This document shows positions 22,828 to 56,503 of a stretch of DNA of 64,000 bases, in pieces. How positions within the stretch are numbered: the first letter of the stretch is position 1; every line of letters starts with the position of its first letter. The DNA is from Branchiostoma floridae. Taxonomy: Eukaryota; Chordata; Leptocardii; Amphioxiformes; Branchiostomatidae. The notes beneath the pieces were generated by a model. That model was not told the DNA's origin. It saw nothing but the letters and a program-made list of their open reading frames with translations, and searched no databases. A program made the translations under genes and the position numbers. The stretch covers positions 15,650,915 to 15,714,914 of the forward strand of contig NC_049980.1 of NCBI RefSeq assembly GCF_000003815.2, written 5' to 3'.

Positions 22828-25547
22828 AACAAACAGATCTTCTGGTGGCAAAAATCGTCAAGACAGCATGCATCAGCCAAGACCATGTGCCACCATTTAA
22901 AGGCCCAGTGCTCAGTGAACCAATAGCTTGCGCAACATTGCGATTTTGCCTTTGTACATCTACTCGGAGATGAGCGACAAAATCCCATTCATGTTCAGTT
23001 GCAACAACTTCGCACACAGATGGTAAACTACTTCTGAGCCGGTCCCCACATGCTGCCCCAGAGATGGACTCCCCGCAACGTGAGCTGCCATGACAGTTGT
23101 GAGATCTTCCCTGAATCACAAACACTATCTTTGCAGATTCTACACTACAGGCGCAGACACAAACCATGCATACTGTGCCTCCCGGTCACTGGGAACAACC
23201 AATAATCATTTTTCGGATAATTCCAAGAAACGCTTTCAGCGCCTTTTGTGAGGAACAACAAGGCGTACAGTAACATGCCCACACACAAGTAATCAGCTCA
23301 AGGAGAGCATGACAACCCTGTAGAGCCGGACAAAGTGCCCAGGATGGAAGTTCTAACGCGAATCTAGGATTATATTGTGTAAAACGTGTCTAGAATTTGA
23401 ATTAGAGACCATGAATAAAAAGCCCTTGGGCCTGAATATTATGTTGTCATCCGTGAGTTTTATGTCAACACTACGCCCCCAAACTGCATCCGCTAGATTT
23501 TCAGTGTCGCCTGAAATTCCTCCACACACAACGAAGCATTTGAAATTTTCCATCATTTCCGTCAACGGTAAGAATATGCTGGCGTAATGATAATCTATAA
23601 GGGATGTGATGTAAGATCATCCACTATAACTAGGAGACTTAAGTTTGTCACGAATATACAAACCCAGAAGTCAAACATTTGCTTACCAACTACGTTTGTG
23701 TGGAGCCGGTGCGAGGTCCATTCCGATTCAAACAAAAAACGATGAGCGACCTTGTCCTCGTCTTTCACACAGCACGTTTCTCTGGGACGTCCTTGCCTCT
23801 TCGTCCAGAATACGAACCTCGAAATAACTTAAGATATTCCCCAGTTGGGTGGAATATTTGGTAAATTGTGTTTGAATCGGCCACGTCCCAAAACTTTCCA
23901 GTGTGTACTCGCGGCTGGCAACAGTTTGCTTTGCGGCGCGCTGGCGGGAGTTGGCGGACAAAGGTCAACTGGCATCACGTGAGAGGGAGGAAATAAGTTA
24001 TCCTCCATCGTCCTCTGATTGGCCAATAGTTTAATTACTTGGCCGATTGCGTCAGAAAATGTTTGACATGCATTGGGCTATAATTTTAGTTTGTTGGTAA
24101 AGAAATTCAAACGTGCGTCTAACGTTACGAATTTGGAATACAAATATCGTATCGGGGGAACATAGACAAAGTCAATACACTTTTTGCGTCATTCGCAAAT
24201 GATACAAATCTAGCTCGCGCGCATCAAGATTTTGGCTTGCCGACTACCAAGGAGCTTTTTTGTACAATGAAAAATATGATAAAATACTCAGAATTTTAAA
24301 TTATACAAATGCATTACCGATCAGAAACGCAAATAACGTTAGCATAGATTATTGATTATCATTTGCGTCATTGTCTAATAGCTGGTGGTAGGAATTTGGG
24401 TAACTTTTCCACGACTTCACTATGATGATTTTCATTTGCAAGCATATGTTCTTGTCCACATGGGCTAAATGCAGTTATACCATTACCTGAAAAACTACTG
24501 TAAAATACTATCACTTGCAGTGTTGACAGTGAACAATTGGAGAAACAAAACTACTAAAGCTATGCTACTTCTGATCTATCGTTTACGCTGAACATAACGT
24601 TATATAAAGCTATGCTAACACAGTGGGCGTCTTAGGTGATGGCAAGATAAAGCAATTAGCGATGCAACAAAAGTAGTATTGGCATAGTTTCTATTTCGTA
24701 GATATATTGCAATGGCGCAACCGAGGAGGTTGAGCTCCTTGGTGCAACTGACGATGATAATGATGATGTCACACCGATGAAAGCTGGGGGTAATGTGCGC
24801 CAGATGGTAACGACAAGAGAATTGACAGAAATGAACGTGTTAGTGACATTACGGAACACATTGTTAGCCTGGTGTCGGAAAAGAAATGTGATAGCTGCGT
24901 ATGCGGAGTCTCTTCGTCCTCGCACGTAAATACAAGACCAATTGACGGACGAAGAGAATCTGCACCTATAAAAGGTGTGGATAACAGGATAAGAAGTATC
25001 AGCCTCATATACCTATATGATAAGAAAATTTTAAACCACATCACATACCACCATGTGTGTGTAAAATTACTTTCGCTAAATCGGCAAATGACATGTAACG
25101 GTATAAAAGCTCAAGTACGCTGGTATTTTCATAACAGATGATGTTGTGAAGGCGTGGCGAAGACTTGATCCAATAATATGTGTATTCGAGCCATTTCATA
25201 TTACTTAAGAAAGATAAAGTCTGAGTCAGAGTAAAAGATTTGCTGACAAAACAACGAAAGGACAACGAAATCAGTACGTGTGAACACAGCGTGTTTAACG
25301 TTAGTGCTAACTGTTCTCCAATCAAACAGTGACAACGTAACTGATACAGGCTACAGCCCACACTTTCTGTACTTTGTACAACCACCGCAGCGTCATCTAT
25401 CAATAACTTGCAGAAATGCAGATGCCAGACAGTATATAAGCCGACGATCGAGGCTGAGTTCGTGTATTCCACCACAGTTCAAATCAAGAACCTATCGATG
25501 GCGAGGTCACGTAACCCGAGAGCATGCCTGGAGAACATAAGCAACTG
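22828..25547. other. Intergenic, no confident gene
   Basis: 2.7 kb with several overlapping open frames of 60-147 codons but no domain or splice support. The longest (22724-23167, minus) runs into the MITE. Confidence 0.4.
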
Positions 25548-25578
25548 GGTTGCCATAATATTATTATGGCAACCCAGA
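25546..25578. repeat. 33-bp near-perfect palindrome
   Basis: CTGGGTTGCCATAAT and its reverse complement around a 3-bp centre. Unlike the CAAGG palindromes it has no flanking 7-bp direct repeat. Confidence 0.65.
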
Positions 25579-31900: not shown

Positions 31901-34900
31901 GGTAAGCGTCATGCATACTCGTAGGTAGAAACAGGTAAAGGTGGTCCCATCGCATTTTTGAGGCCTTAGGGGCAGTGGGTTGTTAACCACAACAAGGAGG
32001 TAAAAATTTTAACCTCCTTGACCACAATATCTAGAGCACATAAAATGAACACCAGCAAGGCTACCATTCGTGTATGTCTGCATGATGACACGGATAAAGA
32101 ATCTAATTGAATTGTCATTCCTATTTATTTCTGATTTAACACTACATATCATTATTCAATTACTGCATACTTGTGCGGATCTTATCAGAAGAATGGCAAA
32201 AGTTCAGTAGAGCGAATGTGTTGCCTTTTGCTGTTTATTCCTCTTTGATTGTGATCTGTTTACTTTAGAGGTGAACATACTATGGGCCGCACATCAGGTC
32301 CATCACAGCTCCGATGATTACAACATTCTGTCATCACTACGGACATCAGCATTCCAACGCTGTACCTCTTTTGTAAGTAATGTTGAAACAACAAGCAAAG
32401 CATCAGAATCGCAACATTGGTAAAAACAGCCTCGGTGGTGGAGGTACTATCAGCACCACGGACAGGGGCCGACAGCTAGCAAAGCCAGTGTATGAAGAAA
32501 GCTTTAAACCTCACGTATAGGATATAATTTCAGTTCTAATGGCGTTAACAACGATTGAATTTATCATTGACATTGTAGATATGCGATTTTTAGCGTTAGT
32601 GGTACACAACACTTCAAGAGATGCACTAGTCTCAAGTTCTAGGTTTATTCCAGGAAAAGGATATTGCTGTTTTTCAATGTGTCCTGAAGGAAAACGCCGT
32701 ACACTCTCTATGTTTCCACAGCTCCTGTACTTACCCCTGGCCTTAGCAGTGCCCCCTGCTGCTTTTCTGGTTCATTACCAATTGAATCTTCTATATCAGG
32801 CTTGGCTACACACAGAGGTTAGTGGTGAAATTATATATAACATAAACGGTTTATAACATAAACATCATTGCTGATGTGACTCATGAGCATTCAATACACT
32901 CCCACCATTGGCTGGAATTACAGTAGTTCACAGAATGCTTACTCCAGTGGTTAGCGACCCTGCCTCTGGACGAAGAGGATAGGAGTTCAAATTGCATACT
33001 ACTAGAAAGGGCTAAGGTCCCCAGGACAGGACATCTTATTCTCCAAGCAGAGGTTGGGTCGCGGGGATGGTAATGGCCGGGAGCACAGAGAGCTGGTAAA
33101 ATTCTCCGGCACTAGTATACCCGCGATCCAACCTCTGCCTAGATTTCAAAATTTCCTAGTATAATGTACCCGTAGATAATGAACATATCGCCTGTCTTCT
33201 CTGTCTCAACCAGTGGAAGACCCGCTTGTCCAAATTTGCTTTCGCTCTGGCGCTCTGGTGTTCTTTTGTAAAATGCAGTAGTTAGTTTTTAGTCTTACCT
33301 TCGATGATGCTCATGTGTTGACAGCTGCCCTGAACAGTGCTTCCATCCCTTGTGCAGGTGGTTGGTTCCCTGGGTCCCCTGGAGTACATCCTGAACACAC
33401 CGACTCACCACAGGGTTCACCACGGTAAGCTCAGATACAATTATTTCCAATTAGTGGTGCGTACCTAAAGCCCTGACTTGGTCCGGAGCCAAGTCCGGAC
33501 TTGCAAAAAGCAATCTGTCACTTATATTCCCTTTTTTTGTTCTAAACCGTCTGAAACCTTCCATAGACATATTTCCATAGAAATTTGAACTGGGAAAAGA
33601 CAAACAAAAAACAGTTCGTGTTTACACTGGCTGTCTATCATTTTCATGTATTTTTCACATTGCATTTCAATTCATGCTAACATGCAATTTTATATGCACC
33701 CCCTACCCCCCCCCCCCCCCACCCCCCACCCCCCCAAAAAAATGCTCATAATATGACTTTACGTCCGGACCTGAACCTGAACTGCTGGACCTGAATCCGG
33801 ACCTGAAATTGAGTTTAGGTACTCACCACTATTTCCAATTGTGAAGTTGTTGTGTTTGGATATCACTTATGTATTAAAATGAAACGTTACCTGTGATTGT
33901 ACATCTGCTTGGTATTTTTGATAATCTTTTGCGCTATTTCCGTACACAAAGTGAAGACCAGAAAGATAAGAGAGGACTGATCAAGAGCCTGTTGGTAAGC
34001 TCTTTGGTAAACGTTGTGTATAGAATTAGCATATTAAGTATTCACAATTTCATTTCTATTGTCATGGCTTAGAAGCACACTTGAAAACCAATGCACGCAG
34101 TACGAGGGTTAGTGCGAGGGTTAGTATGTTCACAAAGTATTATTATCACTATCTGTTCTATGATGGTTAAACTAACGTGCCCCCTCCTGATTACACCTGA
34201 CTGTCCCAACAGGCAGGAATCAGATGGGAAAGAACTTTGGCGGAACACTCATCATTTGGGATCGAATATTTGGTGAGAAAACTTTGGCATTTTATTTTTC
34301 TGCGAGCCTTGTGAATCAGGGGTGGTATTTTGCGAATAGTGTAATCCATTCTATCTGTTTGAAACTAGGATGGGTCACTCATGAGGTGGTGGGAGGGTGT
34401 CACATGACGAATTCAGGTTGCTATTATTTACCAGTGTCCCTTCAATTGCATCATCAATACTTCCAAATTGTAAAGCTGGGAGTTCAAAGTTTGAGCAGAT
34501 GTAAAATGTTACAACTGTGTGATGATGAAACTCCCAAAACGCTTTTCCTACACGCTCTCTGTCAGAAAGTAGTCTGGATGCCACGTGGGCCTGTTGCCCT
34601 ACATACAAGCCTCTGCATTCAAATCTAAACAACATTATAAAACTCGCAAGGGCTTTATAATGAGTTGCATTATTTACCACAGGCACTTTTCACCAGCAGA
34701 GTGGACCACTGATGTATGGTTTAAGAACTGCTGTCAACACGTGGGACCCAGTCTGGATACAGGTGAAGATACAGATAGTAAGATTCCTTGATGTGAATGA
34801 ACGATTCTGCAGTATATCTGCACGAACATTGAATTTTGTTGTCACAAATCACACTTGTCTGGTTCCTAGGTCCTCCACACAAAAATAGCTCAATACAAAG

Positions 34901-36299
34901 ATACAGGCATGCCATCATAACCCAGCAAAAAAAAACTGAACAAATTTCGAGCTTGAAGAAACTGGGAAATCCTTAATGTTGATTCCAAACAAATGGGTTG
35001 AATAATTATTTTTGCACCATGCAGTTTCATCACTTTGTGTGTATCTGGAATACATTCTGGAAAACCCCTGGGCTGTGGAACAAGTTGCGTGTGCTGTTTG
35101 CCAAGCCGGGCCAGGCAGCCGGCAAACCTCAACTGGGATCTATCCAGGGGCTTCATAAGGTTGGGTCATCACAGCTCAAATGGCTTCATTTCGTCATCTT
35201 GAAAACTGTTTAATGTTAGATCAAAAGATATCCATACTGCATTTTATACAAAAGCACATCATCATTATATTGGGTGAGTTGCCTGCGCCAAGTCACCCTC
35301 TCTGTCCTGCCGTCCCTGTTCCCACCTGAAAAGGAATTCAGTAAACATACAGTGTATATGTGTGACGACTAACGTTACCGTAAGTTAGTCATTTGTGTAC
35401 TGAGGTTTCTTCCACAATAAGTTAAAAGAGACATATTTTTAAAACAGGAGAATCCGTGATGTTTTTCTTTATTCTCTAGATACAGCAAGCACCAAAATAC
35501 GACAGTAAGGTATCCACGGGTTGGGTGTTCTACGTACTGATGCACTTTCTACTCGCTTTGCTGACTTCCAGGACAATTCCCAAGGTAGCTTCATTTTACT
35601 TTGGCTTAATTAGATAACTTGATAATCTCCATATCTGCTCCTATGTGATACATGCTGTGCTTAGTCGTACCAGTAACACCTTAATCTTGTATCGTACTTG
35701 AAACACCCTTACTTGTACCACCAAATCTTACCCTTGTTCCATCATTGCAAACTCTCTCAGTTTCATACATGATCATTACAGTTTAATATTTCACTCTCTT
35801 TTTCATAGGATATGAGTATTTTGGCAACCGTCGGTAAACTGGCAACTATGATGTGGACACTGTCTTGCATGGCAGCAATTCTGGACTGCAGGTAATATAA
35901 CTACCTGATAAGCTTGGAGGCAAGTTCTATTTTCCTGAAACTGAATACAGTGTACTTAAGGCTGGATGCCATCCTATTACAGGGCTCGCCCTAATTTTTT
36001 AGAGCGGGCCTGGTAGTAGTCGGATGGCACCCAGGCTAATTTGCAAACAATGTCAGGTAACATTTGCACAAATCTGCATTTATTTCCATTTCAGGCCAAC
36101 TGCTCCGCTCATGGAACTGTCCCGTTGTGTGTCCGTGTTGGGAACAGGTTTCCTACTGTGCCTCTCTGGTGGCCTGCTGACGTCACAGCCTCTCCTGACA
36201 GCTGTCACTCTGGCCTGTCACGCAGGGTCTGCAGTCCTCTGGAGTGTGGATCTGATGGGGACGGGTTTTCTGCGCGTTAAAAATCTGCGCGCGCGTTAA
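28816..36299 (+). CDS. AGMO: Alkylglycerol monooxygenase
   Basis: Twelve exons join in frame: 28816-28956, 31292-31419, 31750-31901, 32269-32372, 32722-32817, 33358-33424, 34213-34272, 34683-34762, 35025-35159, 35480-35584, 35809-35891 and 36095-36299, giving 451 residues, close to vertebrate AGMO. The N-terminus has the PSETTFEALEEVPNYVK motif. The fatty-acid-hydroxylase histidine motifs are HRLHH (136-140), HQVHH (149-153) and HHRVHH (224-229), and several membrane segments are present. By family knowledge it is a tetrahydrobiopterin-dependent, di-iron ER membrane enzyme that oxidises the O-alkyl bond of ether glycerolipids. Oddities: two residues are missing from a loop in exon 7, and residues ~439-451 plus the stop are transposon-derived. 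A more upstream TTG in the same frame is not a credible start. Confidence 0.93.
30400..30625. repeat. Diverged tandem duplication, ~110-bp unit
   Basis: AACGTGTTGAATGATGCTAA... at 30414 and AACGTGTTGAACAATGCTGA... at 30530 are followed by matching GTAAATA and CTTGGGCA-GGTAC segments. Lies in AGMO intron 1. Confidence 0.6.
31292..31419 (+). CDS. AGMO: AGMO exon 2: membrane segment
   Basis: 128 bp (48-89 plus two bases). AMPFVVILFLVETLVAWI is a membrane helix. CTCATTCCAG acceptor, CAG|GTCAGT donor. Confidence 0.85.
31553..31733. mobile_element. Decayed pogo-like element D in AGMO intron 2
   Basis: The right end reads CAGGTTTGGCTGTG with the family's ACATTGGCCAGGTGGT inner word; the left end is poorly preserved near 31550. 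It stops about 16 bp before the exon 3 acceptor. Confidence 0.5.
31750..31901 (+). CDS. AGMO: AGMO exon 3: first His motif
   Basis: 152 bp (90-140). LWDSSLTWWAAFFGVEFGYY leads into HRLHH, the HX3H iron ligand motif. Its acceptor TTTGTACAG lies about 16 bp after the end of a pogo-like element. Confidence 0.92.
31993..32020. mobile_element. Ultrashort palindromic insertion, copy 1 (28 bp)
   Basis: CAAGGAGGTAAAA and TTTTAACCTCCTTG form an inverted repeat with one mismatched pair. The 7-bp direct repeat ACCACAA flanks it exactly (31986-31992, 32021-32027). In AGMO intron 3. Confidence 0.8.
32269..32372 (+). CDS. AGMO: AGMO exon 4: second His motif
   Basis: 104 bp (141-175), EVNILWAAHQVHHSSDDYN: HXXHH motif. 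TACTTTAG acceptor, TTT|GTAAGT donor. Confidence 0.93.
32722..32817 (+). CDS. AGMO: AGMO exon 5
   Basis: 32 codons (176-207), a hydrophobic PLALAVPPAAFLV stretch and the conserved NLLYQAWLHTE. Confidence 0.92.
32938..33035 (+). repeat. tRNA-derived SINE fragment
   Basis: An A-box-like AGTGGTTAGCGACCCTGCC is followed by a B-box-like GGAGTTCAAATTGC, the layout of a tRNA-SINE head. In AGMO intron 5. Confidence 0.55.
33042..33146. mobile_element. Relative of the TACTCTCC MITE family
   Basis: TTCTCCAAGCAGAGGTTGGG with CGCGGG is mirrored by CCCGCG with ATCCAACCTCTGCCTAGA. About 105 bp, flanks without clear duplication. In AGMO intron 5. Confidence 0.6.
33358..33424 (+). CDS. AGMO: AGMO exon 6: third His motif
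   Basis: 67 bp (208-229 plus one base), LGPLEYILNTPTHHRVHH: third HXXHH motif. G|GTAAGC donor. Confidence 0.93.
33454..33832. mobile_element. AGTGGTGCGTACCTAAA-ended MITE with 10-bp duplication
   Basis: Ends AGTGGTGCGTACCTAAA / TTTAGGTACTCACCACT, flanked on both sides by ATTTCCAATT. Inside are GTCCGGAC words and a poly-C/poly-A tract at 33708-33742. In AGMO intron 6. Confidence 0.8.
34213..34272 (+). CDS. AGMO: AGMO exon 7
   Basis: 60 bp (230-249 plus one base), RNQMGKNFGGTLIIWDRIF. The family usually reads RN-x4-DKNY here; two residues are lacking and the Asp is Gly. Confidence 0.88.
34683..34762 (+). CDS. AGMO: AGMO exon 8
   Basis: 80 bp (250-276), GTFHQQSGPLMYGLRTAVNT then WDPVWIQ, matching the YGLTHPINTFEP region of AGMO in this frame only. 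Confidence 0.88.
35025..35159 (+). CDS. AGMO: AGMO exon 9
   Basis: 45 codons (277-321), FHHFVCIWNTFWKTPGLWNK then a GKPQLG turn. The donor AAG|GTTGGG is weak but keeps phase 0. Confidence 0.88.
35480..35584 (+). CDS. AGMO: AGMO exon 10
   Basis: 35 codons (322-356), ending in a membrane segment VFYVLMHFLLALL. CTCTAG acceptor, AAG|GTAGCT donor. Confidence 0.82.
35809..35891 (+). CDS. AGMO: AGMO exon 11
   Basis: 83 bp (357-383 plus two bases), hydrophobic, phase matches both neighbours. Confidence 0.82.
36095..36299 (+). CDS. AGMO: AGMO exon 12: transposon-capped C-terminus
   Basis: 205 bp (384-451 and stop). R-P-x-A-P-L-M-E-L-x-R-C matches the AGMO C-terminal helix. From GGG at 36258 the frame enters the inverted-repeat element; GTGFLRVKNLRAR and the TAA at 36297 are element sequence. 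Confidence 0.88.
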
Positions 36300-36964
36300 A
36301 AATCTGCGCGCGCGTTAAAAATCTGCGCGCGCGTTAAAAATCTGCGCGCGCGTTAAAAATCTGCGCGCGCGTTAAAAATCTGCGCGCGCGTTAAAAATCT
36401 GCGCGCGCGTTAAAAATCTGCGCGCGCGTTAAAAATCTGCGCGTTAAAAATCAAGTTGTTTTTTTCAGAAAATGCGCAGGGAGAAATTCTTGAAAATGTG
36501 ACCCCATTATATGATTTTCAATCCGTTACCTGATTTTTTGGTTTGAAAACTTAAAAATGAAAAGCCCCTGATTTTAGGTCCCTTGAGAATAGGTTACTTT
36601 GCATCTCCTGAATATTTCAAAATCACTTAAATTTGACACAAATACATGGGAAAATTACTAATATGAGGCTTGGTATTGTAAAATATAACAGCTTGAGGCT
36701 TTTCTCCATTCTGCAAGCTTCATTCCATCTTTTCTCAAGCAGATTGTTCGCATGCAAATTGGACTACAGAAGGGGATATTGTACTCAAGAATTATACATT
36801 ATGATACTTAATTTTAACTTGTGTTCACTTTTTTAAGCTTTTAAGTTTAAAGCTGCAAAAAAAGTTTTTAAATCCCCAGGGAATCAGCTAATTTCCATAT
36901 TTTAACGCGCAGATTTTTAACGCACAAGTTTTAACGCGTAAATTTTTAACGCGCACAAAACCCC
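36258..36964. mobile_element. AGMO: Inverted-repeat element at the AGMO 3' end
   Basis: The left end reads GGGTTTTCTGCGCGTTAAAA; the right end, reversed, reads GGGGTTTTGTGCGCGTTAAAA. Both are followed by further TTAAAAATC-type repeats, in opposite orientation at the two ends. About 707 bp, no transposase, no obvious target duplication. Confidence 0.7.
36271..36452. repeat. 19-bp minisatellite with alternating GC core
   Basis: Eight full units TGCGCGCGCGTTAAAAATC start at 36286, 36305, 36324, 36343, 36362, 36381, 36400 and 36419. They are bounded by 15-bp short units at 36271 and 36438 that lack GCGC. Units look identical. The stop of AGMO falls in the first full unit. Confidence 0.97.
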
Positions 36965-37160
36965 AACCTTATAAGATGAAGTCACCATGTCATGTGTTGG
37001 AAAGTCCTACTACACCCTACTAGTCTCACATCTCTGAAATCAGCAGATAGTAATACTGTGTGTTCAGATTACGGTTCTGAAAAAAATAGGTCGGTTGGTA
37101 GTATAGCTATGGATGATGTTTTTTTTTTCTTTATGATTTCAGCCAGTTTAGCAATGTGAA

Positions 37161-37166
37161 AATAAA
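37161..37166 (+). promoter_or_regulatory. AGMO: Possible AGMO polyadenylation signal
   Basis: First AATAAA after the AGMO stop, beyond the element. Use is inference. Confidence 0.3.
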
Positions 37167-37210
37167 TGCACCAGAGTGCTAGTATTTTCAACATCGTATT
37201 TTGATAGCAT

Positions 37211-37398
37211 TTGACATCACAGCAAAACTGGACTGGTGAGAGATGTTGGAAAACGTCACTCTACGAGGCTCTCAGATCGAAACTCCTTGTCAGAGGTCGA
37301 CCCCCCAAACGGCAGCAGGTTTTTGCCATGGTCAGTCGGGTGACCAGAAACCGACATTTTTCTAGGCCTGATCGTCCTCACCGTGCAGCACCAAGAAT
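37211..37398 (+). pseudogene. Open-frame fragment interrupted by a MITE (unrecognised)
   Basis: The frame reads through KLLVRGRPPKRQQVFAMVSR and reaches the MITE at 37399. Without the insertion it would run on for about ten residues past the duplicated ACCAAGAAT. No family recognised; may be a transposon scrap or chance. Confidence 0.2.
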
Positions 37399-37597
37399 TG
37401 CTCTCCAAGCAGAGGTTAGGCTCCGGCTGTTTTTTGACGTTTTTCTTAGTCGTTTTTACCGGGCTTTCTATTTTGTATTGAATCTTGTATGTTATGTTTT
37501 GACAATATAAGATACAATACAAAATGCAAAGCCCGATAAAAACGACTAAAGAAAACGTTAAAAAAACAGTTGGAACCTAACCTCTGCTTGGAGAGTA
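37399..37597. mobile_element. TACTCTCC MITE, copy 3
   Basis: 199-bp hairpin with CTCTCCAAGCAGAGGTTAGG ends. Perfect 9-bp direct repeat ACCAAGAAT at 37390-37398 and 37598-37606. It interrupts an open frame beginning near 37211. Confidence 0.9.
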
Positions 37598-37606
37598 ACC
37601 AAGAAT

Positions 37607-38249
37607 AGCTGACATCGGTATCGGCTCCATTTACGTAACATGAAATAAAGTTGACATTACTACCGGGCCTACTGTTAAGCTGCTAGCTCATTTACAACCT
37701 TACATAACTCACCTAGTCGACCTTCCTGCTGGTTTGGTACTTTCAATGGCATATTTTTACGTGTTCAATCGTATAGAAAGGTAATACCCTTTGGAACCCT
37801 GTGGAAACCACTTTGCGTGCTGAGCTCATCTGAACATGACGGTAAAGTGATTCAATTCATGGCGACACCAGTAGCCAAAATACCGAACTAGTAATACTAG
37901 GTCTAAAATCGGACACGTCAATCTGTCCATCCTGTGTATATATTACGTCACATACAAAAATATTATAACACTCCAACAATATATTGAGATACTTTAATGT
38001 GTTTGTTGGGTTTGTCTACAGCAATACTAGGATGCATAGACAGAATTAGTGAGAAAGTTGCAATAACGAATAAAACAAGAAATTTAAAAAAAAATCTCAA
38101 ATATGCCACAGAGTCATGAGATCGTTGGTTTCTTGTTGCATTTTTAAAAATCTTTCTTGCTGTTTTTCTTTGAGGAGAAAGGCCCGGGCTGTGTGTCTGG
38201 AACATTACCCACTACGGTTCGATCCGTCTTCCTGTCGTCTACTATATTA
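37607..38249. other. Intergenic, no feature seen
   Basis: 640 bp without a supported gene or repeat. Confidence 0.45.
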
Positions 38250-38733
38250 AGGTCTCATTGATGTATTACTCCGCGAGTGGGTAATTAAAGAGATCCGAGC
38301 CAAAAATGAACGGCTGCACGGACGCATGTTTTGAGCGGTGAGAAATTTCCTTTTAGCCAGCGGAACTGACGTCAAAAGTTAGATTGGTGAAAGCTTATTT
38401 GTAACTGAAGAAATTAGCAGGTAAAGTTTTGCAGCCGCGCGCTAGGTCGGAGGTACACAGTCGTGGGTTCTGAGTGGTGCGGTTGTACACTAGCAGCAAA
38501 AAAGTGCCTTTTGTGGGGATTGACTAATCGTAGTTTGTAATTGCTATAAAAAAAGTTCCTATGTATAGTTTACGTTGGCAATTTTTTCCCACGATATAGA
38601 GTAAATGTGCTCGACATAGAATGAAAAATCTGCTGAAATTTCACGTAGCTTCATTATAAACGCGCCCATTTTAACCACGAATTATAACTATGGAATTAAG
38701 TCTATGGGAAGAAGAAACTCATCAATGAGACCT
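38250..38733. mobile_element. GGTCTCATTGATG-ended MITE, copy 3
   Basis: Same ends and interior as 1125-1606 with small deletions and substitutions; flanked by TTA/TAA. Confidence 0.85.
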
Positions 38734-39724
38734 TAACGTCATCCACCCTTCGCAGCATTACCGGGCAACTGTCTGACCACGCGAGCTTGAACGAGTATCC
38801 CACATCTGTGCCTCTTTCTATCAGACTCGCTGAGCGACTGCACAACAATCAAATTGAAGTTGTATCTAAAAGGAACGAAGCGCACAAAACGTATTAAGTT
38901 AGTTTTTGTAAATCTTAATCTACGAAACCCGTTGTGCGATCTACCAAACCTTTTCCGCAGCGCCGCGGCCCCAGCCTCTGGAGAAGTTGGGTTGATTATG
39001 TAACTACGCTGGAAGCTGGCTACCATACATATAAGGCACACAACACGTTATGTAAGTAAGTACAGGAAATCGATGATTTCCCACTGGTCTCTCCAAGATC
39101 CAAGATCATAGTCGTGCAGCGTGTGCAGGCCGCGTTCTCCCCGCGACAGAGCCGATCAATGGTTTGCATACTAGTACGTAAACGCAAGGGCATTTATTCA
39201 TTTCTGATTATATAATGTCCATTTTGTTTATCTCTGAGTTTTTTCGGCCGAGTGTTTTTTTCTGTCGAGTTGTGGCCCCGGTTTCTTTCACTCACATCTC
39301 CAGAGCAATCTGAATTCAGTGTCCAAGTCTCAGCGCCATACAAGAATATCAACAAGACGGGAGATCAAAAGGAGAATTTTGGTCGCCATATCATTGTTAC
39401 AACAGATGTGTTTGAGTTTCGAGGTCGACAATGCAAGAGTAGACTTTGCACTGCTTCCAAAAAAAGAAGTCAAACCCAACCTGTTAGAAATAGCCAACAC
39501 TAGTATTAGAGTAGAATATTGTTCATGACTGTCCATTGTCACTATGTATATACCGTGTAGATTTGTACAGTCTGACTGCACACACAGACACACACACAAA
39601 CACACCGACCCTCGTGAAAACATAACCCACATGAAATGGATAAAAACAGAGGCACCTGACTTCAGGATGTTTTTAATTCCTCTCGAAAGTACGTTCGCTG
39701 GACACATGTAATGCTACGTGCGTG

Positions 39725-39756
39725 CAAGGACGTTACATCAGGATGTAACGTCCTTG
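39725..39756. mobile_element. Ultrashort palindromic insertion, copy 2 (32 bp)
   Basis: Perfect 15-bp arms CAAGGACGTTACATC / GATGTAACGTCCTTG around AG. Exact 7-bp direct repeat GTGCGTG at 39718-39724 and 39757-39763. Confidence 0.88.
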
Positions 39757-39791
39757 GTGCGTGTGAGGAATGTTGCAACAGATATTGTGAT

Positions 39792-40114
39792 GGGTGTTCG
39801 GAATTACCGGTCCGGGCCGGACCGCGGAATTACCGGTCCGGTCTGTTTAGGGGGCGGAAAAACCGGTCCGGTCTGTTCTGCGTTTATCTACGCCCCCTGG
39901 CAGGAAATAGCAGAATTGCAATTGGTATGCTGTGTTCCCGTATATCACAACATGAAGCGCATTGATTGGATGCATGGGGTCCGCATGCTAATGTCACTGT
40001 TTACGTCAGATCGATCGGCGACGGTTAACATAAACATTGCACTGGTGGAAAGTTTGCCATGCCCGATACGCTGAACGGAACCTACTGCCAACAACACTCA
40101 AAGCAGTAAAACCG
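39792..40114. repeat. Long inverted repeat, left arm
   Basis: Begins GGGTGTTCGGAATTACCGG with several ACCGGTCCGG words. Reverse complement of 43941-44264 with a modest number of differences. No matching target duplication at the two outer ends. Confidence 0.85.
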
Positions 40115-42321
40115 ACACTAGCTTGAGACAAATAATAGGTCGACAATGATCAGAGTATGATCAGAGTGAGATTTTCTTGTTGGGCCGGCTTTCATTTCAT
40201 ATATGGAATCGTGAAAATAGGATCGTGATCAAAGAACTGAAGTCTGGGAAATCTTCAGACACTTGCAATCGCAATCGTCATTTTGCATTTCATCATGCAA
40301 AAATTCAATATACCTATCAAGAAAAGCCAGCTTGACAAACCATATCACATTCTCTATATAAATGACAGATTTTACCGTGATCGATATTGATTGTTGTCTT
40401 ACACTTGTCGCTAAAGACGAATATTTTTGTTTTGAAGACAACAATCCCATGTAATCACCTGCAAAAGCTCGCACGCCGATCGGAAAGACGCCCGTGTAGT
40501 TTTCAGAGCCGAAACCGTGAGTCGTGGGTTACCCTAATATATTCGAATTAAACCAAGGCAAAGTGCCAAATAGTCATCTTAATTTGTATGTTGGAAATAG
40601 ATTTGACAGGAATTGACCAAAGGTGGGCTTTCAATGTTTCGGCAGTCTCGTGTCGGCCAGCTGAACGCGTGGGAAAAAGTTGAAACAAGAGTGACAGTCC
40701 GGGGGTGCCTGGCGTCTTACACGGAGCGCCGCGAGTCTGTGACTGTCGCAGACTCGTGCTGATTTCGTTACACATCGAGTGCGTAGAATTAGATAATGAT
40801 AATAATACCACAGAGAACCTAAAATACAGTGGTTTGTTCTTTGGAGCTCTTGGCTTGATTCATTTCCAAAAGTAAACAACACTTGTATTTTAATTCAAAT
40901 CCCACAGACCGACAATGCCACAGCCTGGCTGTTACTATGGTTGTGATTGTGATTGGCAGTCGTGCGGCTTCCTCTGTAATGATATCCCTAACCTACTTAG
41001 CATATCGGTACCCTTTGATCAGGTCGACAGAAGTCCACAAACTGCCGAACGATAGCTTTTCAGGATCGTGTAGAACTTCCTACATTACGTTAGAAATCGG
41101 AGACAATTTCTAATATTCCCATTACAAATGTCTCACTGAGTATAACCTTTTTTTCTTTGCAAGTGGAAATATAAGGTTTGCCTGAGTTGGTTATTTACCA
41201 TATACATGTACAAGGTGAAATTGTAGAACCATATTATGCCCGGTCATAACTTTCTATAGATCATTTCCGGTCATTTCTATAGATAAGCTGATGCTCATTT
41301 GTTAGGAATTGATTGATATCATAGCTACTTTTCTAGAGGCGGACTTTTCGGATATTTTTTTCTTCTTAGAAAGCCGGAATATATTTAATATACATTGTGT
41401 AATACAATATACAATTTACAATATACATTGTATAATGTAACCATATGCCCGGATATACTATGTATTTCTAGATAAGCTGATGGTCCTTGTTTAATTAGTT
41501 ATTGATATCACAACTACTTTACTAGACGATAACTATGTTTTCATCCGACGACTTTGCTTGAAATAATGCTGCTGGTCGTCGAGGGTGCCGAGGGGCCCAA
41601 CAAGACCTACCTGTTCCTGACGGAGCTTCCTGACGGAACATCGCTGACTGCCGCTCCTGATCGTCGCACCGACGAAATCAATACAAGGCATTCTTTCAAC
41701 TTTATGTGCTTTAATGTATTTGTTGATCGTATATGTCTGTTCAATGTTGTGTTGTTTGGCGTAACTAATTAACCGTATCTGTTGAAACTTGTGAAGTCGC
41801 AACTAATATTACACTTACTTCTATGTATATACTACATACACTACATACAAAATGTACTATTATTAGGTAGCTACATTTCTAAGTCAGAATAAAGGGATTC
41901 GGGGTTCCATCCGTTGCACACTGCTGATCGTCGGGGGTGCAGCTCCACCAAGAAGCCCTAGCCTCTACCAGGCTTCGCGGATCGGTGGTTTAATTGTAGA
42001 AAATGGACAAATAGAGTCAATGGTACGCTAGGGGAGTCAGCCGGCTAGAGGAGTTGTTTTCCTCGCCGACGGCCTGGAGTACATTCAACCTTGCAGCGAT
42101 CCTAGATTCTGATGTCCTGGTTTAACAACTGACACTAACATGAGGCAATAACTGTCATGAGCTCTTGATTTCAAAATCTTGATATAAAAAAATAGCATTA
42201 TAGAAGTCCATCGTCCATATATTAAAAAAATTGCATTTCCGATTCATACTGCAAGAAATGTCGAGAGGGGGTTGTATGAATGAGCCCCAAAACAAAAGAA
42301 CATATAATCTTCTGCTTGTAC

Positions 42322-42352
42322 CAAGGACGTTACATCAGATGTAACGTCCTTG
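42322..42352. mobile_element. Ultrashort palindromic insertion, copy 3 (31 bp)
   Basis: Same 15-bp arms as copy 2 around a single A. Exact 7-bp direct repeat CTTGTAC at 42315-42321 and 42353-42359. Confidence 0.88.
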
Positions 42353-42916
42353 CTTGTACAAAAATATCGCTGTTAACAGTGGTGACGATGTACCCCCATT
42401 TTAAACCTTGTTTATTGATTCTATAATCTACAACTACAGTGTAGCTGCTGAAAATTATAGGTGAGAAACTGTTCCAGCTCCTTTAATTTGGAGAATACAC
42501 ATGTACACATCATAAAACGTTTAAAACCTGGAAGGTAAGTTCATACGAGAGCTTTCCATCATCATTGTGCAGCTACCAGATCGACCATCATCTATTCCAA
42601 ATGTGGAAATACGGTAGGTACATCGCTAAATGTAAGATGAACTTCCATGCCTTTGTCATCTTAAGTCGCGGTGGCACCATATATCAGTATAAATCACAAC
42701 TGAATCTGTCTAACAATTTGTGCACGCCTGTTGAACTTTACGATGTGGGTTTACGATACATGCTATTCCAAAATACCTAAAATATATTAATCGGTACTAA
42801 ATATCGCTATGAAATAAAGTAAACCAAGAAACATAATCAAACACTGTGGAAAAACAAGCCCCGTGCTGATAGTTGTATATAGCACAGGCCCATTCTTTGA
42901 AAACATGCCGTCAAAC

Positions 42917-42936
42917 CAATGCGATTAACCTCCTTG
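42917..42936. mobile_element. Ultrashort insertion, copy 4, one arm decayed (20 bp)
   Basis: CAATGCGATTAACCTCCTTG keeps the TTAACCTCCTTG arm of copy 1 and a CAA start. Exact 7-bp direct repeat GTCAAAC at 42910-42916 and 42937-42943. Confidence 0.7.
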
Positions 42937-43789
42937 GTCAAACTCAAAGAAGCCGCGCCCCGCCCGCATATGTGTCAATCAAATTGAGCGGCGCGGCAAG
43001 AGGGCCCGGGTCAGACCCATTTTTGCTACAATGCTACCGGTATCTGAACATCTATTAAACACATTCACCCGCAGAAAACATCTATTGGTTTCTATTTCAA
43101 TAATGTAGGTCCCATACATCCGCTCAAAACCACAAAGTTTGACAACATTCCTCACTTTCTGAACCCCACACAAAACCACGCCGACTGCGTGTGTCATACC
43201 AAGGAGAAAAGTGCCTTTAAACTCTATAGTGTATATAACATCTTTGGTCATATCTAATAGAAAGCGAGTAAGTAGTAGCTCTAAAATACATAGTTGCACC
43301 ATTCCAGATATGTATTTGCTGTGCACAGATATTCCTATCAAAATTCAAAGGTGGCTTTCAAACTGCGCACTGGTGCATGTTCCCGATCTTGATCACGCCC
43401 GGCGGCAATATCAAAGTTGCCGGTGACTTGTGTTGTCCGGTTATGTTTGGTTTTCTGGGAACATGTACAGGCGCTTTATATTGACGTTGCAATGGTTGCA
43501 TTTATCTCAGCATTGTTTGAATACACATATTTTTGAATGAAGAATTATTTCAAAGAAAATATGGTTATGAGAATTGTTCTTTCGTGTTAGGAAAATAGCA
43601 AAAGTTTAAGATCGGCTAGCCATTTTACTTAAACACAGTCTAATTACGTTGCATACGCGGTAGAACCCCGCCCTTCCGACCAGACGCTGTTAAATTTCTG
43701 CCGTAAATCAGGCTGTTTGATTAATAATAATGCTCATGAATATTCCGTGTACACGGTATTCAATGAATATTCTGAATACAACCGACCGG

Positions 43790-43807
43790 TGAGGTGAGGT
43801 GAGGTGA
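43790..43807. repeat. GGTGA microsatellite
   Basis: GGTGA repeated four times in tandem. Confidence 0.8.
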
Positions 43808-43940
43808 GAATCGACCGCTCTTCACGTGATACCGTCCCGTAAATACGGCCGTATTACGATCGGATTTACGGCGTGTACACGATTATGCTAATCGTAATCG
43901 CCCCATCGTAATCTACGATAACGTTAGTGTTCAAAAGTGA

Positions 43941-44264
43941 CTGTTTTACTACAGTGAGTGTTGTTGGCAGTAGGTTCCGTTCAGTGCTTCGGTCATGGCA
44001 AACTTTCCACCAGTGCAATGTATATGTTAACCGTCGCCGATCGATCTGACGTAAACAGTGACATTAGCATGCAGACCCCCATACATCCAATCAGTGCGCT
44101 CCATGTTGTGATATACAGGAACACACCATACAACATGCAATTCTGTTCAATTCTGCCAGGGGGCGTAGCTACACGCAGAACAGGTCGGACCGGTTTTTCC
44201 GCCCCCAAACCAGACCGGACCGGTAATTCCGCGGTCCGGACCGGACCGGTAATTCCGAACACCC
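43941..44264. repeat. Long inverted repeat, right arm
   Basis: Reverse complement of 39792-40114, including the GGAATTACCGGTCCGG cluster at its outer end. Confidence 0.85.
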
Positions 44265-51100: not shown

Positions 51101-53552
51101 TTGATACAATTTGATATCGATGAATGGTAACCTGGGATCTAATTTGCATAATCAATGTTGAAATTTTATAAACCAACTCCAAGCATATGATTATAAAGAA
51201 AATGAAATGAGTAACACATTTGTCTACAGACATCATTCTACATATTAACAAACCTTGTTATTTGGCAAAGGTATGTGTTCGTGGAACTCTAGTTGTTTAT
51301 CCCCTGTGGCTGTCGCCAAGTTAGAGTGATAAACGGTGTAAATAACGTTCTTGATGTTTGGGTGGCTAACAGCTTTTGACTAGCCTGCATTGATGAGGTT
51401 CTGTTGTATCTGACTTAACTTGTAGACAATGGCGACAAGAAGAAGCTTGAGGATGCTGATGAGATGGACCCCAATGTCATGGCATCTGCCTTCTTGGGAC
51501 CCAACTTATGGGATAATGTGGATGACTTCAAGGTAAGTTCAGTCTTTGATGTGTGTGTCTCAGTGGAGGGTTGACATGTATTTAATATCAATGAACAGTG
51601 GGACTGCAGCACGCTTGACTCAGGTCCAGAAGGTCCTCAGTTCGAACCCCGCCTGTCACCGATCTTGTGCCCTTAGGAAAGGCACTTAGTCCACAGCAAG
51701 TAAATTTTATGGATGACATCCACGCGCTCATTAATTTTCGCCTGATTTCAGAAAAAAGCAAGATTTTTTTTCTTCTTCAGGGAAGGCCGGATAGACGAAA
51801 ATGGGTAACGGTTGTGTTGTAACCTAATCATTGAATGTAGAATTGACACTGGAGACTCTGTAGCATTGACTGACATTGCAGAGGTGCAACTTGATAGATA
51901 GTTGTAAAAGTGGCACAACTATGAAGCTATGAGTGTAGTTGCCAACATGGTGAGTGATACCAGTCTACCACACTAGTGTCACTTTAACTACACTGGTGCA
52001 CTTCTTAAATACAGGAATGAATGCCTTGTTGGCTGTGATGCCAAATTTTGTCTCTTCAAGTCTTGTTACAACGTCTATTTTGAAAATTTGCCATCTTGTT
52101 TTTTTTTACCCATCTTGTTTTTTTTTTGCCCTATCTCATTATTTTTGCAGTCTGCAGAGGATGTCATCCATAAAATTTACTTGCTGTTGGTAGCCTCAAA
52201 ACGAAAGAAGAACTGATCTGATTCCTACAAGTACCTCAATGGAGGAAATTAAAAAGAGTAGCTCAAGATTTCCTTGCATTTTGAGCTTGTATACTGACCA
52301 TGTTGTCTGTCCTTTTCCAATCTATCAGAAAAGTGCCTTTTTCAACTTAAACGTTCAGCTGAGCATAATGCAGCATTTTCGAGCAGTAAATAACTTGCCA
52401 CAAAGAAACACAATAGAGTTGATATCACAAAGGTAGCACAAGTATATTGTAAAAGATGTGACGCTAAGGTCTCTTTTCATTCTCAGGACTTCAAGCTGGA
52501 GGCTATCGACCTGGATGACTTCTTCGCAGAAGCTGGGATCCTTGTTCCACAGGACGTCCCGGTGGGCGACCCCAGTACTGCAGGGTTACCGCAGATCCCT
52601 GACCCTAAATCTCCAGAACCTGCAGCTTCAACATCATTCTCCCCGTCTCCACTGGAGGCTACAACAAGTACATGTAAGTGTTGATCATTTTATTTTACAT
52701 TTCTGTTGGAGAGATTGTCAGAAAGCAAGTACTGCTTATTTAATGCCCTCTCCTCTTACAAACTTGGGACAGTAAAATAATTTCAGCGAAATCCACAAAT
52801 TAACTTGTCAAACTTTGATTCTGATCTGAACAAATAATAGATTTACCAGCTACAGGTACAGCTTAAGAAAGCAAATATCCCTGTACAAGAAGAGAACCAT
52901 GTCAAAAATGAAATAGTTGACAGCATTCTAGAATCTAGAGGGTTACTTTGCAACTCTTTTGTAATTTCTCAATTGATAAACTTGTTGTTATACTATATGT
53001 AGTTTGGAAGTCAAAGTTTTCATTTGTCTGTAAGTAAACTGTTTTAGAAGATGGTGATGGTTGTGAATTGTCAACAATCACATTATTATATTCCTATCTT
53101 CTGCAGCCATCAGCAGCCCCGAGCCAGTATTGTCTCCGGGTGTCTCCCCTCCCCACATCAGTATGGAGGAGGTGATTCCAGAGGTGGAGTACGACGTCTC
53201 GCCAACTGATGTGGCCCTTGCCTCCATCCCAGGAAAGGAAGAGTTCAATCCTCGCAAACGAGCCTTCAGTGAGGAGGAACTCAGGCCACAGCCCATGATC
53301 AAAAAGTCACGCAAGATATTTGTTCCTGAGGACTTGAAGGACGACAAGTACTGGGAGCGCCGCAAGAAGAACAACGTGGCGGCCAAGAGATCACGGGATG
53401 CAAGGCGGATCAAGGAGAACCAAGTGGCACTGCGAGCATCTTTCCTGGAGAAAGAGAATGCTACCTTGAAGGAGGAGTTGCTGAAGGCTAAGGAGGAAAA
53501 TGTGATCCTGTCCAAGAAACTTTTGAAGTATGAACAACAGAACAGAGTCTGA
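48020..53552 (+). CDS. PAR-bZIP transcription factor (TEF/HLF/DBP/Pdp1 group)
   Basis: Four exons join in frame: 48020-48113, 51426-51532, 52487-52673 and 53107-53552, giving 277 residues. An N-terminal activation part holds [13 protein letters not shown] and [15 protein letters not shown], both typical of HLF/TEF. The proline-acid-rich PAR region ([17 protein letters not shown] to LKDDKYW, ~177-212) leads to the basic region [13 protein letters not shown] (218-230) and a leucine zipper to about 270. By family knowledge it binds RTTAYGTAAY as a dimer in the nucleus and takes part in circadian and metabolic gene control. It is equally close to TEF, HLF and DBP by eye, as expected of a single ancestral-type gene, so no one symbol is given. 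Confidence 0.93.
48597..49262 (+). repeat. ACCTTTGCCAGAATGGCTAAGG-family repeat, copy A
   Basis: Opens TTTACCTTTGCCAGAATGGC and holds two cores of the form GCATAACTCGAGARGACTTC followed by GATGCAGCTG and ATTTGGTGGGTGGGTAGGGG. Each core is followed by GGGCCYCCTAGCGGCTT. In intron 1 of the PAR-bZIP gene. Confidence 0.75.
49530..49735 (+). pseudogene. Non-LTR retrotransposon scrap (reverse transcriptase C-terminal part)
   Basis: [20 protein letters not shown] followed after a frameshift by [12 protein letters not shown] is the typical stretch downstream of a LINE reverse transcriptase. Frameshifted and short; inactive. Confidence 0.7.
50352..51290 (+). repeat. ACCTTTGCCAGAATGGCTAAGG-family repeat, copy B
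   Basis: Opens ACCTTTGCCAGAATGGCTAA and closes TATTTGGCAAAGGTATGTG, so the ends are inverted (ACCTTTGCCA / TGGCAAAGGT). Inside are one TAACTCGAGAA core, then three diverged subunits beginning GACGGATCRTCATGATTTTT near 50578, 50820 and 51057. Confidence 0.75.
51426..51532 (+). CDS. PAR-bZIP exon 2
   Basis: 107 bp (32-67), [17 protein letters not shown], acceptor CTTGTAG and donor AAG|GTAAGT. Confidence 0.92.
51598..51692 (+). repeat. tRNA-derived SINE fragment
   Basis: B-box-like CAGTTCGAACCCC, then CCCTTAGGAAAGGCACTTAG, the usual body of deuterostome tRNA-SINEs. In PAR-bZIP intron 2. Confidence 0.6.
51693..52187. mobile_element. ACAGCAAGTAAATTTTATGG-ended MITE
   Basis: ~30-bp inverted ends: ACAGCAAGTAAATTTTATGG continuing GATGACATCC, and its reverse complement. 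The inner GGATGACATCC is shared with the elements at 749 and 57390. In PAR-bZIP intron 2, directly after the SINE. Confidence 0.75.
52487..52673 (+). CDS. PAR-bZIP exon 3
   Basis: 187 bp (68-129 plus one base), [18 protein letters not shown] then a Pro/Ser-rich stretch; CATTCTCAG acceptor, T|GTAAGT donor. Confidence 0.92.
53107..53552 (+). CDS. PAR-bZIP exon 4: PAR, basic region and zipper
   Basis: 446 bp (130-277 and TGA). Carries the whole DNA-binding and dimerisation unit. CTTCTGCAG acceptor. Confidence 0.95.
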
Positions 53553-56133: not shown

Positions 56134-56503
56134 TAACAAACGTTACCACCACGAGGACGATGGTTGCCATGGTTATATCATCCACGCATAAGACTAGAAA
56201 TGACCGTTTTTGTGACGCTGTAGTTTTTCTGGCTTTCTAAAGGAACAATAAATGTTTGTCGACTCATTTATATCCCATCTTGCTTAACAAAATGTTGTAC
56301 AGAAATGACTGTAACAAACGTTACCATTGTTCGATGCTCTCTAAGCTTTCTACTTAACCTGGTGTAAAAAAGCTGCCCACTTTTCAAATGCCCCTAGGGA
56401 TGTCCACTTATACCTAAATGATGTCGTCAATAAGGTGCTTCCTTTCGAAGAAAACAGGGTAAAGTCTACTGTTGTAACAAACGTTACCGGTAACGTTTGT
56501 TAC
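56134..56503. repeat. TAACAAACGTTACC repeats with a 30-bp perfect palindrome
   Basis: GTAACAAACGTTACC occurs near 56134 and 56310. At 56474-56503 it meets its own reverse complement head to head, making a perfect 30-bp palindrome. Looks like transposon end sequence, family unknown. Confidence 0.75.

Follow-up and report, generated by a model that had tools for sequence, protein, structure and literature searches.

The window, the whole 64,000-nucleotide stretch of Branchiostoma floridae DNA analysed here, contains four short insertions that an earlier, sequence-only reading had picked out. All four were recovered where that reading placed them, and each is surrounded by an exact 7-bp repeat. 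We call these insertions scars, after the origin proposed below. Scars 3 and 4 lie within a larger repeat, the carrier. The features are as follows.

31986–31992, no strand assigned: left target site duplication of scar 1, ACCACAA
31993–32020, no strand assigned: scar 1, 28 bp, CAAGGAGGTTAA end type (right arm only), arms of 14 with one mismatch
32021–32027, no strand assigned: right target site duplication of scar 1, ACCACAA
39718–39724, no strand assigned: left target site duplication of scar 2, GTGCGTG
39725–39756, no strand assigned: scar 2, 32 bp, CAAGGACGTTACATC end type, centre AG (L025 in the genome scan)
39757–39763, no strand assigned: right target site duplication of scar 2, GTGCGTG
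39792–44264, no strand assigned: 4.47-kb carrier element holding scars 3 and 4
42315–42321, no strand assigned: left target site duplication of scar 3, CTTGTAC
42322–42352, no strand assigned: scar 3, 31 bp, CAAGGACGTTACATC end type, centre A; also in three other carrier copies
42353–42359, no strand assigned: right target site duplication of scar 3, CTTGTAC
42910–42916, no strand assigned: left target site duplication of scar 4, GTCAAAC
42917–42936, no strand assigned: scar 4, 20 bp, lopsided, one end CAA, then filler, other end ATTAACCTCCTTG
42937–42943, no strand assigned: right target site duplication of scar 4, GTCAAAC

The sequence-only reading described one fully palindromic family with CAA(GG) and CCTTG ends. 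Full palindromy applies to scars 2 and 3, which have perfect 15-bp arms. In scar 1, 13 of 14 arm bases are paired, and scar 4 (CAATGCGATTAACCTCCTTG) is not a palindrome, its left end being reduced to CAA. Three units do run from CAAGG to CCTTG. Two end types are represented: CAAGGACGTTAC in scars 2 and 3, CAAGGAGGTTAA in scars 1 and 4 (in scar 1 on the right arm only). Chance had been judged a very unlikely origin, and simulation bears this out. The window has three CAAGG..CCTTG units bounded by exact 7-bp repeats, to which scar 4 with CAA alone at its left is additional; its 30 third-order Markov simulations produced no such unit. When near-palindromes of any kind were counted, provided that they had an exact 7-bp repeat, the simulations gave a mean of 0.07 and a maximum of 1; the observed total for this measure is inflated by 100 N in the window and was left unused.

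Elsewhere in the window, a 19-bp unit (GCGCGTTAAAAATCTGCGC) is repeated in tandem in about ten copies (36234–36481). An exon of a bZIP transcription factor (PF07716) lies at 53067–53552. Perfect palindromes at 25545–25577 and 56474–56503, with arms of 16 and 15 bp, were considered as kin of the scars and set aside; they have no CAAGG ends and, by eye, no matching flanks. Long CANRG..CYNTG pairs with matching 7-mers were also discarded. Their ends are dissimilar and the pairs look like chance.

The carrier is bounded by inverted repeats of about 328 bp (39792–40119 and 43936–44264). These are ~90% alike and start GGGTGTTCGGAATTACCGGTCC. A complete copy in L062 is 98.8% identical and has CAGTCAGCAC on both sides. 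We take this 10-bp duplication to be suggestive of Mutator-like elements. The copy in the window has no matching flanks, and L061 and L063 contain parts of the carrier. Scars 3 and 4 are present in L061, L062 and L063, scar 4 of L061 being without its left flank. The scars were copied along with the carrier. They are older than that spread.

A genome-wide scan had been proposed by the sequence-only reading. We searched 513 Mb in 431 contigs, the window included, using three scar patterns. The pattern CAAGGACGTTACATC-N0..8-GATGTAACGTCCTTG occurs at 42 places. A second, CAAGGACGT-N0..8-ACGTCCTTG, occurs at 222 places; these units are 18–26 bp long and hence do not overlap the 42. The third, CAAGGAGGTTAA-N0..14-TTAACCTCCTTG, occurs at 296 places. 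Read backwards, the three patterns occur nowhere in the 513-Mb genome. The 15-mer was also present at 18 places in viral contigs, which may be chance matches and are excluded from every count.

Flanks were read at 82 of the 560 pattern places. Both target duplications were retained around remnants of both ends at 71 of these, as exact 7-bp repeats at 68 and as exact 8-bp repeats at three; the other 11 had no exact repeat of either length. All 42 places of the CAAGGACGTTACATC set are included: 35 have exact 7-bp duplications, two have exact 8-bp duplications, two match at 6/7 and the remaining three at 5/7, 1/7 and 0/7. From the CAAGGACGT set we took the first 20 listed among places whose flanks had not already been read (16 exact 7-bp, one exact 8-bp, three with 6, 5 and 2 of 7). 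The CAAGGAGGTTAA set, for which the 20 places at the head of the list were read, gave 17 exact 7-bp duplications, two of 6/7 and one of 5/7. Places exceed events because some scars ride as passengers in repeats. For instance, four of the 42 places are a single scar that was copied with its carrier. L146, L161 and L165 share the same 7-mer, L161 on the other strand, and may be copies of one another.

A longer element with scar ends and the same duplication length was found for the CAAGGACGTTACATC end type. The 15-base end alone matches 118 + 126 places genome-wide, compared with 1 + 0 for the control. The matches listed are the C1–C7 portion of these. Among the matches listed, end pairs 1573 and 1570 bp apart mark two copies of one element, 96.8% identical and in opposite orientation, flanked on both sides by ATATCTG and GAACTAC, respectively. 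A DNA search with this parent identified seven full-length copies at 95–100% identity, the query counted in, together with internally deleted, interrupted and partial copies. Flanks of nine copies (the seven full-length and two interrupted) comprise eight exact 7-bp duplications and one of 6/7. The ends of all seven full-length copies read CAAGGACGTTACATCAG[A/G/C]AGGACTG, and the inverted repeats are ~28 bp. One interrupted copy, on C10, diverges from position 12 or 13 onward. Inside both fully printed copies lies, by eye, a 24-bp unit whose ends are of a related type; the repeats around it are imperfect (5 and 6 of 7). In the 1.57-kb parent, no open frame exceeds 96 aa. Two further spans were rejected as elements: a 73-bp span on C1 consists of neighbouring scars, and C2:556668–558030, a candidate of 1.36 kb, is by eye two separate scars, both in the final count. 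For this one end type, scars are several times as numerous as the full-length copies found. The sequence-only reading took the 7-bp repeats for true target site duplications and the ends for sequences recognised by a transposase; both views stand. It had also suggested looking for full-length elements with a transposase. The element is there, and no transposase was found between its ends.

Compared with one another, the scars of this end type differ in how their two ends meet. We pooled the 42 places with single 15-base ends among the matches listed, merging entries with the same 20-base flank. Among the single ends listed (54 rows), a repeat matching at 6/7 or more accompanies 29; for the other 25 none that good lies within reach, and two of these are the parent's own ends. 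The pool comprises 63 entries with a duplication of 6/7 or better, 58 of them exact, and represents at least 62 distinct scars. When right flanks were shuffled among 64 entries (one more than the final 63, L099, whose strand was misread), 1.06 exact matches arose on average. For 33 further entries, a search over 60 bp turned up no repeat. These include entries that read one scar from its two strands and two places with 8-bp duplications; in the remainder, the second end has been lost, has changed or lies somewhere else.

The 62 distinct scars display 27 join types between 19 and 48 bp in length. Common joins are 31 bp (13) and 34 bp with the centre AGCT (5). A 25-bp join, CAAGGACGTTACATCAACGTCCTTG, occurs at seven sites, six with exact repeats, and a 19-bp join, CAAGGACGTTACATCCTTG, at five sites, all with exact repeats. 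Some joins, of 38, 47 and 48 bp, contain extra bases. By eye, L102 and L112 suggest that one end has gone right up to the repeat. A 26-bp join via a shared AT was predicted from the end sequence. C1:10453650 has such a join, flanked by an exact 7-bp duplication, and is the one such place among the matches listed for the CAAGGACGT pattern.

The length of end retained is mostly 15–18 nt. The minimum is in part set by the search, in which one side or both had to show 15 bases; the maximum is free of this constraint. In the pool from the matches listed, 39 of 124 scar ends match the sequenced parent through nt 17. Four of these 39 match at nt 19, where chance predicts ~10, and none at nt 20; nt 18, variable among parents, was not scored. 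Joins with CAAC look like 18 nt retained rather than 17. In the CAAGGAGG type, 14 of the first 20 listed are 35–37 bp, with a peak at 36–37 (~18 per side), under a pattern that admits up to 38 bp. L097 and L098 are 42-bp scars on different contigs. They share the same perfect 21 + 21 arms, and each is flanked by an exact 7-bp repeat of its own. These arms exceed the length that a 17-nt tail predicts. The data suggest that the sharp 17-nt limit holds only for the end type of the sequenced parent and that other types retain about 18.

We consider it very probable that the small units are end-joining excision scars of P-type transposons with CAAGG ends. A P-element-type transposon would insert, duplicating 7 bp of target on entry. 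Later, its transposase would excise it, cutting one strand at the element edge and the other about 17–18 nt inside. Each side of the gap would be left with the duplication and a single-stranded tail, ~17 nt of transposon end. The cell would join these tails in one of several ways: directly, at a short match, once trimmed back or by copying in filler. An untrimmed join would be a palindrome of ~2 x 17 bp between the 7-mer copies, because the tails are two inverted ends. Trimmed joins would come out lopsided. The scars, their duplications, a parent of one end type and the range of joins are observed; from them we infer a P-type transposase, a staggered cut, an end-joining pathway and the part played by any particular repair enzyme. 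In studies of the Drosophila P element, its transposase cleaves the 3' end of the element and the other strand 17 bp inside (PMC7776569), and the broken donor keeps 17-nt 3' tails (PMC7776569, PMC2895639, PMC5466332).

The transposons that left the scars most likely belong to the P superfamily. This assignment is made because of the cut, the duplication and the target, and not from a gene. Over 90 exact sites, a set that may still include the L099 strand misreading, the favoured bases are TNN-GTNNNAC-NNA. T at position 2 and A at position 6 occur together at 48 of the 90, and the whole GT...AC at 12. For the sequenced parent type, the end of the parent match at nt 17 suggests a second-strand cut 17 nt inside. 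The P-type RNase H domain PF21787 has three matches in the genome. One is a 767-aa open frame at L145:492–2792, which also matches the RAG1 importin-binding domain PF12560 above the cut-off, a pairing that struck us as unusual. No CAAGGACG end pair lies within 5 kb of this locus. No transposase was found between scar-type ends, and none was among the 10 of 39 open frames in the window that were run against Pfam.

Two variants of this assignment were weighed. There is some chance, though a modest one, that these transposons form a lineage with an enzyme of its own, perhaps related to that at L145, which cuts 17 to 21 nt inside according to family; the scars would then be a datable record, spanning the genome, of breaks in the germline repaired by microhomology joining. 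It is less likely still that the scars stem from excision by a transposase outside the P superfamily, in which a similar long stagger evolved. The ends without any linked transposase, and classes that point to 18 or even 21 nt instead of 17, would suit such an enzyme. Against it, the 7-bp duplication, the GTNNNAC target and the ~17-nt tail jointly match P-superfamily members, as these are described in the literature consulted, and P-type transposase domains are present in this genome.

The sequence-only reading offered a different interpretation, in which a transposase moves the bare ~30-bp palindromes themselves. Intact 15-bp ends on both sides, exact duplications and the 31-bp form at 18 of the 42 places (four of the 18 being one carrier-copied scar) are what such movement would give. 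However, the ends are fixed while the centres differ between sites, scars with one end down to CCTTG or CAA have equally exact duplications, and long parents carry the same ends. Centres vary and many scars are lopsided; hence, a bare unit is hardly what moves. With most of one end missing, the 19-mer is unlikely to be recognised, and still its duplications are as exact as those of other scars. We therefore regard movement of bare palindromes as very improbable. Two further ideas were rejected as unsupported: a family of ~30-bp elements and the collapse of a larger element on insertion. Full-length elements of 1.57 kb share these ends and the 7-bp duplications, the joins of the small units vary between sites, and many units have one end reduced to a few bases. 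The earlier reading is partly supported: its observation is real and its interpretation is wrong in the important part. Extreme internal deletion by interrupted gap repair, leaving the ends alone as in MITEs, can claim the internally deleted and partial parent copies but is scarcely credible, since it gives no reason for a repeated stop at nt 17 of each end and, among the matches listed, perfect 15-base end pairs include no single unit between ~50 bp and 1.57 kb.

If the excision-scar reading is true, the hundreds of matching places document, in nature, how broken chromosomes were put back together. "Hundreds" refers to the 560 pattern places, of which 82 were checked, and the starting ends are known for one type. 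P-element excision joins are familiar from laboratory crosses; the same kind is seemingly kept here naturally. For natural scars with known starting ends, the choices of join (direct, shared bases, trimmed, filler) can be counted without experiment. Repeat annotation that depends on long copies may overlook a good deal of what such elements did in the past, and scanning for short palindromes between 7-bp repeats could detect departed transposons. We found no description of a genome-wide set of such scars in the titles and abstract openings searched, which leave out most subscription journals and are no evidence of priority.

MITEs also have inverted repeats, target duplications and no coding capacity, but are 80–500 bp long and move as units (PMC2874221). 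Scar units are shorter and most likely immobile; a MITE moves as a short unit with both ends intact, whereas lopsided units here carry exact duplications. In zebrafish, Pdre2 is a P-like vertebrate element that can be excised by THAP9; unlike the parent here, it has 13-bp ends, CATACCTGTCAAC, and an 8-bp duplication (PMC10983969). Two other members of the P superfamily are closer in target. Galileo uses GTANTAC with a duplication of 7, rarely 8 bp (PMC4168063), and 1360 (Hoppel) has the 7-bp target GTTNAAC (PMC3276498). Both share the 7-bp duplication and a palindromic GT...AC target with the scars, but their end sequences, judged without an alignment tool, are other than those here (PMC4168063, PMC3276498). 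Galileo also has very long inverted repeats (PMC4168063), in contrast to the ~28 bp of the parent. The base three before the duplication is mostly T here and A in the motif of the Drosophila P group.

The anatomy of the window scars resembles that of laboratory excision junctions of the Drosophila P element. There too, the two copies of the duplication enclose at most 17 nt from either inverted end, and the ends meet bluntly, at short shared bases or across filler (PMC2895639, PMC5466332). Full 17 + 17 joins of P{wa} were recovered in a polymerase-theta mutant; other P{wa} joins are lopsided, contain filler or are 30-bp palindromes via a shared AT, a frequent form (PMC2895639, PMC5466332). The P element differs in its 8-bp duplication and its end, CATGATGAAATAACATA, compared with 7 bp and other ends here. 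The P{wa} junctions were induced in the laboratory, partly in repair mutants (PMC2895639, PMC5466332), whereas the amphioxus scars are natural and come from another animal.
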